From positions 186,001-250,000 of the forward strand of contig JAHEJJ010000001.1 in NCBI GenBank assembly GCA_024638915.1: a stretch of 64,000 bases of DNA, in the 5' to 3' direction. This stretch comes from Robiginitalea sp. Its GTDB lineage: Bacteria; Bacteroidota; Bacteroidia; Flavobacteriales; Flavobacteriaceae. How positions within the stretch are numbered: position 1 is the stretch's first letter; each line of letters opens with the position of its first letter. A model generated the notes under the pieces. That model worked only from the letters and a program-made list of their open reading frames with translations. It did no database searches and was not told where the DNA came from. A program made the position numbers and the translations under genes. This document shows positions 21,090 to 30,240 of the stretch, one piece after another.

Positions 21090-22259
21090 ATGCAGTCATT
21101 GCCGGAAAAACTCAGACAGAAAATGCACCAAAGGGAGGCTGATAATGCCCTTAGAAAGTTGGTAGTAAGGGACAGCCTTGTCGATTTTACCTCTAACGAC
21201 TATTTGGGTTTTGCCAGAAGTCCTGAGTTATACCATGATATTGACAATTTCCTCAAAGCAAGTGAATACCCACTAAACGGTGCAACGGGATCCAGGCTGC
21301 TTTCAGGAAATCATTCACTTAACGTGGAAGTGGAGAGTTTCTTGTCTGATTATTACCATTGTGAAGCCGCACTGGTTTTCAATTCAGGATTCTTAGCCAA
21401 CCAGGGTATATTGGCGTCATTGCCACAGCGCGATGATCTGGTGATTTACGATGAGTATGCTCATGCGAGTATTCGGGATGGTCTGTCAATAGGATTGGCA
21501 AAAAGCTTGAAATTCAAACATAATGACCTCCACGATCTGTTGCAGGTAATTCGAAGAGCTAAGCAAACGCAAAAAGATAAACTGGATTGCATCTACATCG
21601 TTACCGAGTCTGTATTTTCCATGGACGGGGATTCTCCCGATCTGAAGGCAATGGTAGAATTGTGCAAGGCCGAAAACTGCAGGCTGATAGTAGATGAGGC
21701 CCATGCACTGGGAATATTCGGCTCGAAGGGCAGGGGATTAATCGAAGACTTGAATCTGCGGGATCATGTATTTGCCAGGATCATAACTTTTGGAAAAGCC
21801 CTGGGATGTCATGGAGCCACTATACTAGGAACAACGGACCTTGTGGACTATCTGGTGAATTTTGCCCGAAGTTTTATCTATACCACGGCTATGTCGCCTC
21901 ATTCTTTGTCTTCGATTATTATGTCCCATAAGCACCTCGATTCAGATCCTGGTACCATCGCCAGGGAAAAATTGCTACAGCGAATCTTCTATTTCAAAAA
22001 AATTGTTGTTAAAAACGGCCTGGAAAATCGTTTTATTCCTAGTTATTCCGCTGTACAATCCTGTGTGGTACCAGGTAATGAGATGGTGAAAAACATTTCA
22101 GAGGTACTTATTGGTGAAGGCTACGATGTTAGGCCCATTCTCGCACCTACCGTAGCCAGGAATAGTGAGCGACTCAGATTTTGCCTTCACTCCTATAATA
22201 CGGAAGTGGAAATAAAAAAAGTATTGGATATCTTATCAGAAAGGCTTACCGAAATATGA
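21090..22259 (+). CDS. bioF: 8-amino-7-oxononanoate synthase
   Basis: PLP enzyme of the alpha-oxoamine synthase family that joins pimeloyl-ACP or pimeloyl-CoA with L-alanine, the first ring-assembly step of biotin synthesis. The length is 389 residues. 'DFTSNDYLGFA' and 'NGATGSRLLSGNH' are family signatures. The PLP Asp is in 'LIVDEAHALG' (Asp202), and the Schiff-base Lys is Lys236 in 'TFGKALGCHGA'. KBL and SPT are related families; the neighbouring bioD, bioA and bioB make BioF the clear choice. Its stop overlaps the start of the DUF2007 gene by four bases (ATGA). Confidence 0.95.
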   Translation: MQSLPEKLRQKMHQREADNALRKLVVRDSLVDFTSNDYLGFARSPELYHDIDNFLKASEYPLNGATGSRLLSGNHSLNVEVESFLSDYYHCEAALVFNSGFLANQGILASLPQRDDLVIYDEYAHASIRDGLSIGLAKSLKFKHNDLHDLLQVIRRAKQTQKDKLDCIYIVTESVFSMDGDSPDLKAMVELCKAENCRLIVDEAHALGIFGSKGRGLIEDLNLRDHVFARIITFGKALGCHGATILGTTDLVDYLVNFARSFIYTTAMSPHSLSSIIMSHKHLDSDPGTIAREKLLQRIFYFKKIVVKNGLENRFIPSYSAVQSCVVPGNEMVKNISEVLIGEGYDVRPILAPTVARNSERLRFCLHSYNTEVEIKKVLDILSERLTEI

Positions 22260-22636
22260 AACAAGAATTTTATACCCTTGGCGCTTTCGAATATGTAGCC
22301 GACGTTCAGGTGATTAAAGCCAAGTTGGAATCGGAAGGGATTGCGGTTTTCCTCAGGGATGAGAATACCTTAAGCACAGATCCGCTGATCAGTTCGGCCA
22401 TCGGTGGGGTAAAGCTGCAGGTTTATACCACCGATAAGGAAAAGGCTACGGCAATTTATAACCAGATTAGATCTTATGCCGTGGACGCTGAAGGCCATCC
22501 TGTGGTTTGTCCCAATTGTAAGGCGGCAAGGTCCGAGGTGTACTATAGCAGAAAAGGCTTGCTTTATAAGCTATTTCCTTTTTTAGAACCGAGAAAATAT
22601 CTCTGTTTGAATTGCCAAATGATCACAAGACCATAA
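22256..22636 (+). CDS. DUF2007 protein with C-terminal zinc ribbon
   Basis: A 126-residue soluble protein. Residues about 1-75 match DUF2007, a small ferredoxin-like fold with possible ligand or signal-binding role ('FEYVADVQVIKAKLESEGI', 'IGGVKLQVYTTDKEKA'). The C-terminus carries a zinc ribbon with C-P-N-C at about 85-88 and C-L-N-C near residue 118. It is translationally coupled to bioF (ATGA overlap) and lies six bases before bioD, so it sits inside the biotin operon. There is no known role in biotin synthesis. It could be a passenger or a regulator. Confidence 0.85.
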   Translation: MKQEFYTLGAFEYVADVQVIKAKLESEGIAVFLRDENTLSTDPLISSAIGGVKLQVYTTDKEKATAIYNQIRSYAVDAEGHPVVCPNCKAARSEVYYSRKGLLYKLFPFLEPRKYLCLNCQMITRP

Positions 22637-22641
22637 GGAAA

Positions 22642-23259
22642 ATGAAAAGGATCTTTATCACGGGAATATCCACAGAAGTTGGTAAGACCATCACCGCTTC
22701 GGTTGTTGTTGAAGCTCTGAAAGCTGATTACTGGAAACCCGTGCAAGCAGGGGACCTCGATTTTGGAGATGCTGAAAAGGTTACTTCATTGATAAACAAT
22801 TCTGAAAGTGTTGTTCATCCTTGCAGTTATGAGCTCCGAACACCCATGAGTCCGCACGCAGCCGCAGAGCTCGATGGGATTAGGATCGACCTCAGCCAGA
22901 TCAATGAGCCCGTTACAACAAATCACCTTGTTATTGAAGGGGCAGGAGGACTCCTGGTACCGCTAAACGAGAAGGATACAATTTTAGATCTTATTCAGCC
23001 GGAGTATAAGGTGATGCTGGTGTCGCGTCATTATCTGGGGAGCATTAATCATACCTTACTCAGCCTCCAGGCATTGCAAAACAGAGGATTGAATGTCTCT
23101 ATTATTTTCAGCGGAAATGAAAATCCCTCAACAGAAAAGATCATTGCTCAAAAGACAAATATCGACGTATTGGGCCGTATCGGAGAGGAAAGTACATTTA
23201 ACAAGGAAAGGATTAGTTTTTATGCCAGCCAGTTTAGGGAGAAGTTGAGATCACTTTAA
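22642..23259 (+). CDS. bioD: Dethiobiotin synthetase
   Basis: ATP-dependent enzyme that closes the ureido ring of dethiobiotin from DAPA and CO2. The 205 residues start at 'MKRIFITGISTEVGKT', which is the family N-terminus with the P-loop at about 8-16; a purine-rich AGGAAA precedes this ATG. 'WKPVQAGDLD' (substrate Lys), 'MSPHAAAELDG' and 'IEGAGGLLVPLNE' are conserved. It is the third gene of the bioF operon. Its last nine bases overlap the convergent GT39 gene. Confidence 0.96.
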   Translation: MKRIFITGISTEVGKTITASVVVEALKADYWKPVQAGDLDFGDAEKVTSLINNSESVVHPCSYELRTPMSPHAAAELDGIRIDLSQINEPVTTNHLVIEGAGGLLVPLNEKDTILDLIQPEYKVMLVSRHYLGSINHTLLSLQALQNRGLNVSIIFSGNENPSTEKIIAQKTNIDVLGRIGEESTFNKERISFYASQFREKLRSL

Positions 23260-24765
23260 ATGTCTGTAAATATTTGCATTATCAACACGATCAAGCAATT
23301 TAAAGTCAGCGTTGAGGATCGAATCGAAATAGATATTCTCTTGAACTTGTTTTTTGTCGAATACGCTGCGATTTGTTCTTGTAATTATGATTTCGGGACT
23401 AACCTCTTCCATGATAAACTTAACTTCCTCTAAAGCGGTATCCCTATCTGTATTGTAATAGGGAAACATTTCAGATTTGCAGATATTGCTAGGATGAGTG
23501 GCCGTTTTGGCCGGCGGATATTTCTCCATTACCCAATATCCGATATGGTAAGCCAGAAAAAGAGTCGTTTCATTCTGCAATTGATTTTCATTTAGATAGT
23601 CGGGCACAGTAAAGCCTTCACCATTATAGAAAGTCCCCTTTTGAAATTTGTTTTTCACGATATTGGCATATTCCAGGTAGGTTTCAACAGGCAATAAAAA
23701 TAATACTCCCAATATCCAGGGTGACGCTTTTCTACTGATTTTGCCAAATTCTTTGGCTAAAACGACGGCTACAACAATAAGTAAAGGCGGATAAAGCTGT
23801 ATGAGGTAATGACTATTAATTCTTCCTCCTTTTAAAAAAGATAGCAATAACCCAACAATACTGACCACCAATACAGCCGATTCTATTTTTCTCAATGACA
23901 AGCGGCCTGATTTCCATCCCCAGATAATAAAGAGCAGTATCGGCAGACAAAGACCGATCAATGCCATGGCGGTAGTGCGTCCTGCCTCTGTATATGCCAG
24001 GGGGGCCAGAATTACAGAATCCCACCACATCTGAGCTCTTCCAGTGAAATAATAAGGTAAGAAAGTAAGCAGGATGATGATAAAGGCCGAAAAGGAGAGG
24101 GTGAACAATCTGGAAACAGAGACAAGCATACCTTCATCTCTATAATACCGGCCGAGCAGATATATTCCGAGCAAAAGTATCGGGAAGGCGATACTTATTT
24201 TAACCATTAGCGCGATCCCGAGAGCTATACCAGCCAGAATAATACGGTTTTTATTCCTAGAGAAGAAGAGCAAGTAAAGTGCGCCCATAAAAAATGTCAT
24301 GAGAATATGCTCCGACATTACCCCCTGAATACTTCCAAACATACTCAGTAAAAGGACGCATCCGATACCGCTGAATATTGCGGCTTTCCTATTGCTTAGG
24401 TTTGAAGTGATAGAATACGTAAAAAATGCGGTCAGAGCGACCAAAAGGGCTCCCATAAGCCTTATCGCCAGAAAACTTTTGCCGAACAAATAAATACTGG
24501 AGGCAAAGAACAGGAAAGTGAGCGGTGGTTTAACGTCCCATAGAACAGTATACGGCAGAAACCCATCGACCCAGGCTTGCCCCATCAATATAAAGGTGCT
24601 TTCATCCCGATCGATATAATCCCTGAAAAAGAATGGGAAACGAATAAAAATGCTCATTACGGTCAGAAGCAATAAGACACCTCGTTCTGTGAGAAGGCCA
24701 GATGCCTTGTCTGCCGCTGTTTTATTATCATCCTGGGGCGCGGACAAATCCTGTTTATTTCCCAT
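23251..24765 (-). CDS. GT39/ArnT-like membrane glycosyltransferase
   Basis: An integral membrane glycosyltransferase of the GT-C type that would use a polyprenyl-phosphate sugar donor. About 504 residues from 'MGNKQDLS'; a Met seven codons upstream is possible but would place the start next to bioA. The first periplasmic loop has the acidic motif 'RDYIDRDESTFILMGQAW'. About ten hydrophobic segments follow, then a soluble C-terminal region with a conserved-looking 'LFLAYHIGYWVMEKYPP'. Acceptor and sugar are unknown. It runs antisense between bioD and bioA, overlapping the end of bioD by nine bases. A second, dolichol-phosphate-type glycosyltransferase lies on the same strand upstream across bioA, a plausible partner that makes the lipid-linked donor. 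Confidence 0.85.
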   Translation of the reverse strand: MGNKQDLSAPQDDNKTAADKASGLLTERGVLLLLTVMSIFIRFPFFFRDYIDRDESTFILMGQAWVDGFLPYTVLWDVKPPLTFLFFASSIYLFGKSFLAIRLMGALLVALTAFFTYSITSNLSNRKAAIFSGIGCVLLLSMFGSIQGVMSEHILMTFFMGALYLLFFSRNKNRIILAGIALGIALMVKISIAFPILLLGIYLLGRYYRDEGMLVSVSRLFTLSFSAFIIILLTFLPYYFTGRAQMWWDSVILAPLAYTEAGRTTAMALIGLCLPILLFIIWGWKSGRLSLRKIESAVLVVSIVGLLLSFLKGGRINSHYLIQLYPPLLIVVAVVLAKEFGKISRKASPWILGVLFLLPVETYLEYANIVKNKFQKGTFYNGEGFTVPDYLNENQLQNETTLFLAYHIGYWVMEKYPPAKTATHPSNICKSEMFPYYNTDRDTALEEVKFIMEEVSPEIIITRTNRSVFDKKQVQENIYFDSILNADFKLLDRVDNANIYRHLK

Positions 24766-24808
24766 CTTTGCAAGATAAAAAAACAAAATACCATAAAATA
24801 AAACTTCA

Positions 24809-26077
24809 TTGAAGAAACTTTCGGAAAGAGATCAGAGATATCTGTGGCATCCGCTTACCCAGCACAAAACACATCCCGGGATGTTGGGAATCACTTCGGC
24901 CAAAGGGGTCTTTCTCCATTCTGAAGAAGGCCATAGCTATATCGATGCGATTGCCTCCTGGTATACTTGTATGTACGGACACTGTAATGATTTTATCATC
25001 GATCGTGTCCAAGATCAGATGCGGCAACTGGACCAGGTCGTTTTCAGTGGTTTTACACATAAGCCAGCGATTGAATTGGCTGAAGCCCTGGCAAAAATAC
25101 TTCCAGCGAACCAGCAAAAATTTTTCTTTTCCGATAACGGCTCTACTGCGGTGGAAGTGGCGATCAAGATGGCAATTCAGTATCATTTCAATAAAGGCGA
25201 AAAAAGAAATATAATGCTGGCATTAGAGGAAGGATTCCATGGTGATACCTTCGGGGCGATGTCGGTTTCCGGGCTTTCGGTGTATAATGGCGCCTTTGAG
25301 GATTTCTTTATCAAGGTGATTCGTTTACCCAGACCTACCGAAGACAATATCGAAGAACTTTTACATAAAGCAGAGGTATTGCTTGAGGAAAATGCCATTG
25401 CCGGGTTTATTTACGAACCCCTGGTACAGGGTGCTGCGGGCATGAAGTTGATCGAAGCCTGTCACCTGGATCCATTGCTGGAATTGATGCGGAATTACGG
25501 AGTGTTAACGATAGCTGATGAGGTCATGACCGGTTTTGGAAAAACAGGCTCTAATTTTGCCTCGGATCAGATAAAACATCATCCCGATTTAATGTGTCTC
25601 TCCAAGGCCTTAACCGCTGGTTTATTACCTATGGGACTAACGACCTGTACCCGGGAAATATTCGATGCTTTTTATAGCGAAGAGATCTCCAAGGGATTTT
25701 TCCACGGCCATACTTATACCGCCAATCCATTAGCATGCACTGCTGCTTCTGCCGCACTGGAGTTATTGCTGACCGATGAAATTCAAACGGATATTTGTCG
25801 TATCAATCAGATGCACGCTGATTTTGACGCTCGGATGAAGCGACATCCCAAAGTCGGGAATAGCAGATATACCGGTGTTATCTATGCCCTGGATCTGGCT
25901 GTTTCCATGCAGCGTTATGGAAAACTGCGCGATACGCTTTATAAGAAATTCATGCATAAGGGTGTCTTCTTAAGACCTTTGGGAAATACCATCTACATCT
26001 TGCCACCATATATTATTACCGACGATCAGCTGAGCAAAGTCTACCAGAGTATAGAAGAAGTCATAGATTCAATATAA
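24809..26077 (+). CDS. bioA: Adenosylmethionine-8-amino-7-oxononanoate aminotransferase
   Basis: PLP class III aminotransferase that converts KAPA to DAPA with S-adenosylmethionine as amino donor. The length is 422 residues. The N-terminus 'RDQRYLWHPLTQHK' holds the Trp/Tyr region typical of BioA. 'DNGSTAVEVAIKMA' binds PLP phosphate, Asp is in 'LTIADEVMTGFGKTG', and Lys266 in 'CLSKALTAG' forms the Schiff base. The start is TTG: an in-frame stop lies 15 bases upstream and no ATG fits. The sequence CATCTTTG at 24763-24770, one mismatch from a -7 box, could be its promoter. The stop touches the end of the convergent GT2 gene. Confidence 0.96.
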   Translation: MKKLSERDQRYLWHPLTQHKTHPGMLGITSAKGVFLHSEEGHSYIDAIASWYTCMYGHCNDFIIDRVQDQMRQLDQVVFSGFTHKPAIELAEALAKILPANQQKFFFSDNGSTAVEVAIKMAIQYHFNKGEKRNIMLALEEGFHGDTFGAMSVSGLSVYNGAFEDFFIKVIRLPRPTEDNIEELLHKAEVLLEENAIAGFIYEPLVQGAAGMKLIEACHLDPLLELMRNYGVLTIADEVMTGFGKTGSNFASDQIKHHPDLMCLSKALTAGLLPMGLTTCTREIFDAFYSEEISKGFFHGHTYTANPLACTAASAALELLLTDEIQTDICRINQMHADFDARMKRHPKVGNSRYTGVIYALDLAVSMQRYGKLRDTLYKKFMHKGVFLRPLGNTIYILPPYIITDDQLSKVYQSIEEVIDSI

Positions 26078-26836
26078 CTAATTGTCAACCTCTTTTTTTT
26101 TGCTTTTTTTATGAGATCTATAGATCAAGAACAGGTCGTACCACAGCCTGAAAAAATAGCTCAATTTCACTTTGGAGGCACCGCGATCCACCCATCTTTT
26201 AACAGGCACTTCTTCCATACGCTCTATCGAGTCCTCTATATTAAAGTGATTCAATAATCGGCTGAAAAGTTCCACATCGAACAACCACTTCGAAATAAAC
26301 GTCTGCTCGAAAAGCAAAGGGCTTAATTCGGATTTAAACACCTTGCATCCGCATTGGGTATCATAAACCTTTAAATCCAATATTTTGGAGATCGCTGTGG
26401 CCAATATCCTTCCGATCAAAAATCGTGAAAAGCGCCGATCGACCACGGCCCCTACTTTTAATATCCGGGAGGCGAACACAAAATCCTTTTCAGGTAAATA
26501 GTCCAGATATGAGTAACACTCCTCCAATGAAGTGGCGAGGTCGGCATCTAAATAAGCAATGGCGTCTGAGATGTCTTTTTCAAAACAATGCATAACACCT
26601 TTCTGCACACTGGCCGCCTTACCTGAATTCTTTAGGTTGCTGAGCAAAATGATCTGTTCGGGAAATTCTTCCGACAGTCCATTAAACAAGACCTCGGTTT
26701 TGTCGGTAGAAGCGTCGTTAACCAGACAGAGGCAGGCTTCCGGATAGTTTACTAAAAAGCTTTTGAATTCCTGCGTGGGAAATCTTTCGTATTCATTATA
26801 GGCAGGTATTACAATAGCGATTTTTGCCCTATTCAT
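26078..26836 (-). CDS. GT2 glycosyltransferase, dolichyl-phosphate glucosyltransferase-like
   Basis: A 252-residue GT-A fold enzyme that probably transfers a sugar from a nucleotide donor to polyprenyl phosphate. 'IAIVIPAYNEYERFP' is the N-terminal signature, 'DASTDKTEVL' and 'LKNSGKAASVQKGV' form the nucleotide site, and 'AYLDADLATSLEE' carries the D-x-D metal motif. There is no C-terminal membrane domain, but the Lys-rich tail ('HKKSKKKEVDN') may favour membrane contact. The product could feed the GT39 enzyme encoded on the same strand beyond bioA. A small GGCC-TTC-GGCC palindrome lies in its upstream region. Confidence 0.87.
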   Translation of the reverse strand: MNRAKIAIVIPAYNEYERFPTQEFKSFLVNYPEACLCLVNDASTDKTEVLFNGLSEEFPEQIILLSNLKNSGKAASVQKGVMHCFEKDISDAIAYLDADLATSLEECYSYLDYLPEKDFVFASRILKVGAVVDRRFSRFLIGRILATAISKILDLKVYDTQCGCKVFKSELSPLLFEQTFISKWLFDVELFSRLLNHFNIEDSIERMEEVPVKRWVDRGASKVKLSYFFRLWYDLFLIYRSHKKSKKKEVDN

Positions 26837-26938: not shown

Positions 26939-28105
26939 GTGGGATCAGATAAGAGCTTATGCATTGCGATTACGGCGATTGATTCTGTTTCGGCCTTAGG
27001 AACAGGCAGCTCCTGCTGGAAGTCGTTTACTACTCAGCCTCACTTGCTCCAACAAACCATGATATCAGGGAAAAAGGTATGGACCGGGAATATCCCTGAA
27101 GAGCTAAATGCTCAAATACTGCAATTAAAACATAAGAACCCAGGCTATGCTAAGCTAGACAAGAGCGTTCTTCAGGCTATTTGGATTTGCAGACAACTGG
27201 TTGATCAGGCAGGATGGAAATCTGAAGACGGTTATGGTATCAATCTCGGATCGTCCAGGGGTGCGACAGCACTTTTTGAAAAGTATCATAAGGATTTCCT
27301 GGATAATTCCCGGGTTTCAAGTCTTGCCTCCCCTACAACCACCTTGGGGAATATTGCCTCGTGGGTTGCACACGACCTGGGCAGCACCGGACCAGAACTC
27401 TCTCATTCCATTACCTGTTCCACCTCCCTTCATGCCTTGCTGAATGGCATGGCATGGTTAGAAGCCGGACTATCGACTAAATTTTTGATAGGTGGTAGCG
27501 AATCTCCTCTCACTCCCTTTACTATTGCGCAAATGCAGGCCTTGAAGATCTACAGCAGGTACGAAGACTCATATCCGTGCAAAGCAATGGACCTGACTAA
27601 GACCAACAATAGTATGGTATTGGGTGAAGGAGCCGCCGTTGCATGTTTGGAAAAGGGGCCAAAGAAGAACGCATTAGCCCTTGTTACCGGGATTGGTTAT
27701 GCTACTGAAAAACTTGACCATCCGGCCTCTCTATCAGCCAGAGGGGAATGCTTGCAGAAGTCTATGACCATGGCATGTAAAGGAATCGATTTGGCGGAAG
27801 TCGATATCGTGGTAATGCATGCTCCAGGGACCAAAAAAGGGGATCTATCTGAGTATAAGGCGATAGAAAGTGTATTTGGTACTCGTAGTCCGGCCCTTAC
27901 TGCCAATAAATGGAAGATTGGGCATACACTTGGAAGCTCGGGTGTGTTAAATCTTCAGATGGCAGTACTAATGCTAAAGCAACAGGAGTATGTTGGTGTC
28001 CCATATGTAATGAATAGCCGAGCCCCCGGGAAAATTGAAAATATTTTGATAAATGCTGTTGGATTTGGAGGCAATGCGGTTAGCGTACTACTGAAAAAGA
28101 ATTGA
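26939..28105 (+). CDS. Divergent FabF-like beta-ketoacyl synthase of the biotin cluster
   Basis: A 388-residue thiolase-fold condensing enzyme. The nucleophile Cys160 sits in 'SITCSTSLHALLNGM' and the second catalytic His is retained in 'NKWKIGHTLGSSG' (Lys324, His329). The first His motif, HGT in FabF, reads 'MHAPGTKKGD': His294 is displaced by two residues and Pro occupies the usual place. The C-terminal 'NAVGFGGNAVSVL' is intact. GTG is the likely start, because the conserved core begins within ten residues. Placed between bioA and bioB, it is a candidate for elongating a malonyl- or glutaryl-type starter towards pimeloyl thioester. This is inference; a general fatty-acid or secondary-metabolite role remains possible. 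Confidence 0.85.
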   Translation: MGSDKSLCIAITAIDSVSALGTGSSCWKSFTTQPHLLQQTMISGKKVWTGNIPEELNAQILQLKHKNPGYAKLDKSVLQAIWICRQLVDQAGWKSEDGYGINLGSSRGATALFEKYHKDFLDNSRVSSLASPTTTLGNIASWVAHDLGSTGPELSHSITCSTSLHALLNGMAWLEAGLSTKFLIGGSESPLTPFTIAQMQALKIYSRYEDSYPCKAMDLTKTNNSMVLGEGAAVACLEKGPKKNALALVTGIGYATEKLDHPASLSARGECLQKSMTMACKGIDLAEVDIVVMHAPGTKKGDLSEYKAIESVFGTRSPALTANKWKIGHTLGSSGVLNLQMAVLMLKQQEYVGVPYVMNSRAPGKIENILINAVGFGGNAVSVLLKKN

Positions 28106-28219: not shown

Positions 28220-29326
28220 ATGACCGAGACAAGAAATAATTGGACCCGAGAAGAAATCCTGGAGATCTACAATCAACCTTTGATGGATTTGCTATATAAA
28301 GCGGCCAGCGTTCATCGTGAAAATCATGATCCAAATACGGTTCAGGTATCAACCCTGATATCCATAAAAACAGGTGGATGCCCTGAAGATTGCGGGTATT
28401 GCCCCCAGGCAGCACGATACCATACCGATATTGAGGGAAATGATCTGATGTCGGTTCAACAAGTCAAGGCACAGGCATTAAGGGCCAAATCCAGCGGTAG
28501 TTCGAGGGTTTGTATGGGCGCCGCCTGGCGCAATGTTAAAGACGGTCCAGAATTTGAGAGTGTTTTGGAAATGGTACGAACCATCAATAAGCTCGAGATG
28601 GAGGTGTGCTGTACCCTAGGGATGTTGACCGAAAACCAGGCCAAACGGTTGGCGGAAGCTGGACTGTATGCTTACAACCACAACCTTGATACCTCTGAAG
28701 ACTACTATAAGGATGTGATCTCCACCCGATCCTATGAAGATAGGCTGACCACAATCGATAACGTAAGAAAAAGCAATGTAACCGTATGCAGCGGGGGGAT
28801 CATTGGTATGGGTGAAAATCCTGAAGACCGGGCAGGGATGCTGGTAGCGCTGTCTACATTAAATCCTCAGCCTGAATCGGTGCCCATCAATGCACTTGTA
28901 GCTGTTGAAGGAACTCCGATGGAGGACATGAAACCAGTTTCGATATGGGAGATGGTTCGTATGGTGGCCACTACCCGAATAGTTATGCCTTTAACTCAGG
29001 TACGCCTCTCGGCCGGGAGAACTCAGATGAGCCGCGAGGGGCAGGCGCTCTGTTTTTTTGCAGGAGCCAACTCGATCTTTGCGGGCGATAAACTTCTCAC
29101 GACTCCCAACCCGGATATGGATGAAGACCTTGAGATGTTCAGGGAATTGGGACTTAATCCACAGAAGGCCTTTGCTAAATCGCCTCAGCCTTCGAGCATA
29201 GCGGCAGAAGATTCGGTACTGGCACCGAACGGGGAAAAACCCGGATGGTCAAGACCTGGCCACAAGATCGAGAGGAATGAATCTTTAAGGACCAAAGGCA
29301 AATCAATCTCGGAAAGCCTCGACTAG
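28220..29326 (+). CDS. bioB: Biotin synthase
   Basis: Radical SAM enzyme that inserts sulfur into dethiobiotin to form biotin. The length is 368 residues. The [4Fe-4S] cluster Cys triad is C54-x3-C58-x2-C61 in 'TGGCPEDCGYCPQAARY'. The [2Fe-2S] ligands are expected in 'SSRVCMGAAWR', 'EVCCTLGMLT' and the Arg of 'VRLSAGRTQM'. 'YNHNLDTSEDYY' is conserved. The C-terminal tail of about 50 residues after 'KAFAKSPQPS' is longer than in E. coli BioB and polar. It closes the biotin gene region. Confidence 0.98.
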   Translation: MTETRNNWTREEILEIYNQPLMDLLYKAASVHRENHDPNTVQVSTLISIKTGGCPEDCGYCPQAARYHTDIEGNDLMSVQQVKAQALRAKSSGSSRVCMGAAWRNVKDGPEFESVLEMVRTINKLEMEVCCTLGMLTENQAKRLAEAGLYAYNHNLDTSEDYYKDVISTRSYEDRLTTIDNVRKSNVTVCSGGIIGMGENPEDRAGMLVALSTLNPQPESVPINALVAVEGTPMEDMKPVSIWEMVRMVATTRIVMPLTQVRLSAGRTQMSREGQALCFFAGANSIFAGDKLLTTPNPDMDEDLEMFRELGLNPQKAFAKSPQPSSIAAEDSVLAPNGEKPGWSRPGHKIERNESLRTKGKSISESLD

Positions 29327-29376: not shown

Positions 29377-30240
29377 TTGAATCTAAAAGAAGTTCCAAGA
29401 CTGTCCACGATCAGCGCCGAAGCTTTTCTTAACGGGTATTTTAACCCACAAATACCTGTCGTAATCGAAGGGGCTACCAGTCGATGGCCGGCCTATACTA
29501 AATGGAACTTTGACTATATAAAACGGGTTGCGGGCGACAAGATCGTTCCGCTTTATGACGACAGACCGGTAGACTATCGAGAAGGCTTCAATGAGCCTCA
29601 TGCCAGGATGAAGATGTCGGACTACATCGAGCTGCTGCAAAAGGAACCTACCAACTACAGAATTTTTCTTTGGAACATACTCAGGGAAATTCCGGAGCTC
29701 CGCGAAGATTTCGATTACCCGGACTTTGGCCTTAAGTTGATGAAAGGCTTGCCTATGCTATTTTTTGGGGGTTCAGGTTCTTCTACTTTTATGCACTACG
29801 ATATCGATCTGGCCAATATTTTCCACTTCCATTTTGAAGGCGAGAAGGAATGTGTGCTTTTTTCCCAGGCGCAGAATAAGTTCATGTACAAAATACCCCA
29901 TTCCTTAATTTCTCATGAGGGCATCGATTTTTCTGATCCCGATTTTGAAAAGTGGCCCGCCTTAAGGTATTTGGAAGGCTATAGGGCAAGATTGAAACAC
30001 GGGGAGATGATCTATATCCCTGAGGGATACTGGCATTACATGAGATACCTTACCCCTGGCTTTTCTATGAGTTTGAGGGCGGTGGCAAGAACACCAGCCA
30101 ACCTGGGCAAAGCCATTTATAATATTGCCATTATGCGCTATTACGATATGACAATGCGTAAATTAAGAGGAAGGAAGTGGATCGACCGGAAAAATCAAAA
30201 GGCCATAGAACGCACACACAGATTTCTGCCAGGCTCCTAG
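29377..30240 (+). CDS. Cupin-8/JmjC-type Fe(II)/2-oxoglutarate oxygenase-like protein
   Basis: A 287-residue protein of the cupin-like (JmjC-related) group. The metal-binding facial triad can be placed as His140 and Asp142 in 'STFMHYDIDLAN' and His220 in 'YIPEGYWHYM'. The N-terminal 'PVVIEGATSRWPAYTKWNFDY' is typical of FIH-like hydroxylases. Such enzymes hydroxylate proteins or RNA, but the target here cannot be predicted. The start is TTG, since an in-frame stop lies 15 bases upstream. It follows bioB with its own promoter, so a link to biotin is not implied. Confidence 0.85.
   Translation: MNLKEVPRLSTISAEAFLNGYFNPQIPVVIEGATSRWPAYTKWNFDYIKRVAGDKIVPLYDDRPVDYREGFNEPHARMKMSDYIELLQKEPTNYRIFLWNILREIPELREDFDYPDFGLKLMKGLPMLFFGGSGSSTFMHYDIDLANIFHFHFEGEKECVLFSQAQNKFMYKIPHSLISHEGIDFSDPDFEKWPALRYLEGYRARLKHGEMIYIPEGYWHYMRYLTPGFSMSLRAVARTPANLGKAIYNIAIMRYYDMTMRKLRGRKWIDRKNQKAIERTHRFLPGS

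Follow-up and report, generated by a model that had tools for sequence, protein, structure and literature searches.

A FabF-type ketosynthase in the biotin gene cluster of Flavobacteriaceae is a candidate source of the pimeloyl moiety

Background

Biotin synthesis requires a seven-carbon (C7) chain whose far end carries a free carboxylate. In E. coli, BioC masks this carboxylate as a methyl ester and BioH removes the ester later, because the pockets of the fatty-acid enzymes are hydrophobic. Biotin synthesis varies in this first half, for which the enzymes are often unknown; a large survey listed 74 gut species with bioFADB and no pimeloyl source (PMC6593275). Condensation of three malonates, an old proposal for the origin of the pimeloyl moiety, was set aside because of the same hydrophobic pockets (PMC7645780).

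The closest described system is BioZ of alphaproteobacteria, a ketosynthase of the biotin cluster that replaces BioC-BioH (PMC7645780, PMC8024396). An Arg in the distal pocket was predicted for free-carboxyl primers by Cronan's group, for BioZ (PMC7645780), and three residues have been implicated by docking and mutation, among them R147, which fills this role in BioZ (PMC8024396). No glutaryl-ACP is known in nature (PMC7645780). Another single-gene solution is BioE, a diiron oxygenase of Elizabethkingia and Chryseobacterium that is controlled by the MocR-type repressor BioL (PMC12915131).

The ketoacyl synthase (KAS) described here resembles BioZ in its place in the biotin cluster, in a proposed free-carboxyl primer whose charge would be offset by an Arg at the pocket end, and in a proposed product that would pass to fatty acid synthesis (FAS II) as a 3-ketoacyl-ACP. 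BioZ, however, is a FabH-type KAS III that uses glutaryl-CoA (PMC7645780, PMC8024396), whereas the bio-linked KAS is of the KAS I/II type (PF00109/PF02801) with a Cys-His-His site. Since the two belong to different families, the pocket Arg would have arisen separately in each. Like BioE of the sister family Weeksellaceae, the KAS appears to be the bio cluster's single gene dedicated to pimeloyl supply, but BioE is an unrelated protein that cleaves long-chain acyl-ACP/CoA (PMC12915131), and no genome was found with both. With the BioC-BioH/BioG route of E. coli and others, the proposed KAS route shares the building of pimeloyl-ACP through FAS II; that route keeps the carboxylate covered by a methyl ester, and neither BioC nor BioG was found with the KAS. 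Our search of the open-licence literature found no report of a bio-linked FabF-type enzyme.

Results

The window, by which we mean the whole stretch of 64,000 nucleotides analysed, comes from a Robiginitalea genome of 3.04 Mb that is 98% complete. A preliminary description of its sequence had noted a 388-residue FabF-like protein between bioA and bioB, and the open reading frame, its ketoacyl-synt domains (PF00109, E = 6.8e-17; PF02801, E = 1.1e-16) and the flanking TIGR00508 and TIGR00433 matches bear this out (Table 1). The N and C parts of the ketoacyl-synt domain score 62.3 and 61.4 bits, above the curated cut-off of 20.8, which places the protein in the KAS I/II superfamily, and no ACP_syn_III domain of the BioZ class (KAS III) was found in addition to PF00109 and PF02801. 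In nearly all relatives bioA and the KAS gene are directly adjacent, without the second glycosyltransferase. An in-frame ATG near position 22642 may be the true start of bioD. A quick scan of the window for strings like BirA half-sites gave isolated matches only, none of them near the bio genes.

Table 1. Features of the biotin cluster in the window
Feature	Position	Strand	Remarks
bioF, 8-amino-7-oxononanoate synthase-like	21090..22259	+	TIGR00858 is the best hit; its 309 bits fall short of the equivalog cut-off of 426
DUF2007-like small protein	22256..22636	+	Between bioF and bioD; cluster member in 45/80 named loci
bioD, dethiobiotin synthase	22612..23259	+	Above cut-off
Glycosyltransferase	23251-24786	-	Interrupts the bio cluster between bioD and bioA; common to 14/80 named loci
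bioA, adenosylmethionine-8-amino-7-oxononanoate transaminase	24809..26077	+	TIGR00508, above cut-off
Second glycosyltransferase	26078-26836	-	Between bioA and KAS; in only 1/80 named loci
Bio-linked KAS, 388 aa	26939..28105	+	GTG start; proposed pimeloyl-ACP-forming condensing enzyme
Arg107 codon of KAS	27257..27259	+	Aligned to I108, a gating residue of FabF; coordinates derived from the residue numbering
bioB, biotin synthase	28220..29326	+	TIGR00433, above cut-off
cupin_8 (JmjC-like) gene	29377-30240		3' of bioB; same place in 39/80 named loci

At the catalytic site, Cys160, His294, Lys324 and His329 of the window KAS correspond to C163, H303, K335 and H340 of FabF, and with the motifs HAPGT (294-298) and GFGG (375-378) the Cys-His-His and Lys set and the gating loop of KAS I/II enzymes are all present. 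Across 70 bio-linked members the catalytic residues and G375, F376 and G377 are invariant, with G378 in 68, which extends to the relatives the earlier observation that the nucleophile Cys160 and Lys324/His329 are kept. The same description had His294 shifted by two residues, and this reading did not hold: HMMER, MAFFT and profile alignments all place HAPGT on H303-G-T-S-T307 of FabF without a gap. A displaced catalytic His is thereby ruled out, all four catalytic residues being in place, and the impression of one probably came from pairing HGT with PGT. Membership of the KS-Q or chain-length factor groups is not indicated either, as the active-site Cys is found in 70/70 bio-linked KAS. Whether compared by sequence, by profile or by fold, the window KAS finds its best PDB matches among FabF enzymes; the predicted model (pLDDT 86) was used for fold only. 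A second KAS of the window genome (G000:C17:22270-23016) has a very long branch and an unusual HLTA at the His site.

The acyl pocket is where the enzyme departs from FabF and FabB. In FabF the pocket is gated by I108 and F202 (PMC7138838), and the window KAS has Arg107, Gln198 and Met199 in this region. The position of I108 is Arg in 70/70 members of the bio clade, that of G201 is Gln in 69/70 and that of F202 is Met in 65/70, and T305-S306 is replaced by Pro-Gly in 70/70; the position of F133 mostly holds a small residue. The 24 other KAS compared show Ile, Val or Gln at position 108, or a gap, and Phe or Tyr at position 202. The motifs with the Arg and HxPG were found at all 80 named loci. 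Judged from these alignments, the informative change of the bio-linked KAS is the invariant Arg in the acyl pocket and not the His. Alignment to FabF suggests that Arg107 points toward the pocket; the part of the predicted model that forms the pocket lid (residues 126-136) has pLDDT below 50.

We built a maximum-likelihood tree of the 70 bio-linked KAS and the 24 others, a set made up of FabF and FabB from E. coli, the FabF of the window genome and further KAS from Bacteroidota. The branch that splits the two sets has an SH-aLRT of 100 in a quick search with some long branches, so the bio-linked KAS lie outside the FabF/FabB clade, and the genome's own FabF groups with E. coli FabF. Against the FabF equivalog TIGR03150 the window KAS scores 122.7 bits where 493.75 are required. 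This score and the tree position rule out a housekeeping FabF. The KAS thus shares with FabF and FabB the fold, the domains, the catalytic residues and the GFGG gating loop with its Phe, but has only about 22% identity to them over the whole fold, forms its own clade and is linked to bio genes.

A search of named genomes yielded 80 relatives with 53-59% identity, from Flavobacterium, Zobellia, Maribacter, Kordia, Cellulophaga and others. In 79/80 of these genomes at least one bio gene lies within 8 kb of the KAS, and the order bioF-bioD-bioA-KAS is found at 72/80 loci, often with bioB next. Distant members from other families or classes show bioF-bioD-bioA-KAS-bioB (G116, G111), bioD-KAS (G013), bioB-bioF-bioD-KAS (G296), bioF-KAS (G306), bioA-KAS (G188) and bioB..bioFDA..KAS (G182), and some divergent members have bare bioF-bioD-bioA-KAS-bioB operons with no additional gene. 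The linkage of the KAS to bio genes exceeds chance. The preliminary description had proposed a neighbourhood survey and a KAS family tree as checks and had counted a placement with secondary-metabolite or general FabF enzymes, with no linkage to bio genes, against its idea; the tree gives a clade apart from FabF/FabB, and the bio linkage is conserved.

Among 148 genomes of the order, 50 carry bioB above cut-off. The KAS (E <= 5e-66, with the next hit at only 1e-24) is present in 33 of them, all with bioB, while bioC and bioG occur together in 3 and the BioE profile in exactly 12, all from one genus of a single family (f5). In the f5 genomes a GntR/MocR regulator and a protein of about 207 residues with E-x-x-H motifs precede bioF-bioD-bioB-bioA, and BioE was identified here by this context and these motifs, not by the sequence from PMC12915131. 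The three sets do not overlap, and each genome of the order in which bioB and bioD occur together carries one, and only one, of KAS, BioE and BioC+BioG. One 54%-complete genome (G075) has KAS and bioB with no bioD detected. Two near-complete genomes of the window's family (G018, G124) have bioB and none of KAS, BioE and BioC, and were rejected as counter-examples: both have lost bioD along with the KAS and are therefore probably dethiobiotin salvagers. Their bioB is 62% (G018) and 81% (G124) identical to that of the window.

The genome-wide searches for pimeloyl sources covered BioC, BioG, BioW and BioE; no P450, as a BioI route would need, was seen among the annotated bio-cluster genes. The absence of bioC and bioW, first noticed for the window, extends to the whole window genome, in which no bioC, bioG or bioW was found and the best BioC score is 54 bits, true bioC genes of the order scoring 127-205. 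BioW was found in 0/39 genomes checked (a B. subtilis control was detected), and the KAS genomes showed no bioC-class score, no BioG and, in every case, no bioE. The KAS is thus bio-linked in genomes without genes for BioC/BioG, BioW or BioE, a context like that of BioZ, and no other candidate pimeloyl source was recognised in them.

Shared descent confounds these distribution profiles and weakens simple statistics, since the genomes of the order that lack the KAS come from about three lineages; the window's family is the better test. In this family the KAS is present in 26/26 bioD-positive genomes and 0/12 bioD-negative ones, and two genera (g2 and g3) each hold genomes with both genes and genomes with neither, indicating that the KAS is lost when the pathway is lost. 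In a sample of the phylum, 30/345 genomes have the KAS, all of them with bioD and none with bioC or BioE.

About two dozen bioD-positive genomes elsewhere in the phylum gave no KAS, BioE or BioC by the same searches, so other routes exist, and one might hide in KAS genomes too. Five loci with bioD and late biotin genes are of this kind (L206, L209 and L212-L214, in G256, G373, G148, G294 and G333); at L206 a Nudix/winged-helix (NrtR/AraR-like) gene upstream of bioB-bioF-bioD-bioA is a possible biotin regulator. In other Bacteroidota families a FabH-type KAS III adjoins bioB/bioA (L217:10919-11950 in G150; L216:5896-6885 in G213); its best match is NCBIfam PRK05963, and a BioZ-type route may be present in the phylum.

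Discussion

Given its linkage to bio genes, its exclusivity with respect to other routes and its invariant pocket Arg, the KAS is very probably the missing first enzyme of biotin synthesis in these genomes, and we put the probability that it is a dedicated enzyme supplying the pimeloyl moiety at about 0.85. The preliminary description had suggested that Flavobacteriia have a condensing enzyme dedicated to pimeloyl-ACP, and the bio linkage, the separate clade, the route exclusivity and the co-loss with bioD all support this; retention of the nucleophilic Cys makes the decarboxylating role offered there as an alternative less likely. There is a strong likelihood that the moiety is supplied by condensation of a free-carboxyl primer with malonyl-ACP by this FabF-like KAS I/II enzyme. 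Judging from the pocket residues, it is also likely that the omega-carboxyl primer is accepted unmasked: a pocket Arg in an elongating-type enzyme, with no methyltransferase or esterase beside it, points to the joining of an unmasked primer, and because such an Arg suits a free omega-carboxylate, the ester masking of BioC/BioH would be unnecessary.

In the proposed mechanism, Cys160 would load a short acyl chain ending in a free carboxylate, and Arg107, probably aided by Gln198, would hold this carboxylate where FabF has its hydrophobic gates. The loaded chain would then be condensed with malonyl-ACP, the most likely decisive step being the condensation of a glutaryl-thioester to 3-oxopimeloyl-ACP; reduction of this product by generic FabG, FabZ and FabI would give pimeloyl-ACP for BioF to use. 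The same KAS might build the glutaryl primer from malonyl, or the primer might be glutaryl-CoA from lysine breakdown; it may be carried on CoA or on ACP.

If the KAS built its own primer, it would extend a malonyl thioester twice (C3 to C5 to C7) with the carboxylate left free and with generic FAS II enzymes. No further dedicated gene would be needed, and the bioF-bioD-bioA-KAS-bioB operons hold none; the scheme also matches the old three-malonate proposal (PMC7645780). On the other hand, malonyl on the active-site Cys is prone to decarboxylation, Arg107 may sit too deep for a C3 carboxylate, and FabG, FabZ and FabI would have to tolerate the carboxylate. We consider this double extension to have slightly less than an even chance, and it is only tentatively that we propose a fifth pimeloyl route, in which an Arg-pocket KAS I/II would use malonyl units with a free omega-carboxylate in two ordinary FAS II cycles. 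That the KAS joins glutaryl-CoA, derived from lysine catabolism, to malonyl-ACP in a single step and never uses a malonyl primer is a reasonable possibility, though one we would not expect. Alphaproteobacterial BioZ carries out the same condensation (PMC7645780), and the carboxylate of a five-carbon primer would fall near the site of FabF I108, that is, of Arg107; yet KAS I/II enzymes classically take acyl-ACP, and many KAS-bearing genomes are small (1.3-2.0 Mb) and may lack the means to make glutaryl-CoA.

The remaining explanations fit the data less well. Because weakly BioC-scoring methyltransferases occur in every genome, the KAS might elongate a masked malonyl ester with the help of an unrecognised methyltransferase and esterase encoded elsewhere. 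This is improbable, given the low BioC score and lack of BioG in the window genome, a pocket Arg that is ill-suited to a neutral ester, and the absence of the KAS from genomes with true bioC/bioG. More improbable still is a KAS that serves lipid or secondary-metabolite synthesis and lies in the biotin cluster by chance: Bacteroidota often have KAS paralogues of this sort, but the near-universal bio linkage, the co-loss with bioD and the exclusion with BioE and BioC argue against it. Least credible of all is that the KAS is the general FabF that serves fatty-acid synthesis, or a KS-Q/CLF-type decarboxylase; the Pfam domains and the fold are indeed those of FabF, but the genome has a separate FabF that groups with that of E. 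coli while the KAS falls outside and far below the equivalog cut-off, and the invariant Cys160 is unlike KS-Q/CLF proteins.

Conclusions

If this assignment is true, the KAS would join BioZ as the second case in which a fatty-acid ketosynthase was independently converted to the use of dicarboxylic primers, and it could be used as a small component in producing biotin or pimelate. Flavobacteriia have been named as major biotin producers of aquatic systems (PMC9561691), and the missing step of the pathway would be assigned for most sampled biotin-making Flavobacteriaceae and for several other Bacteroidota.
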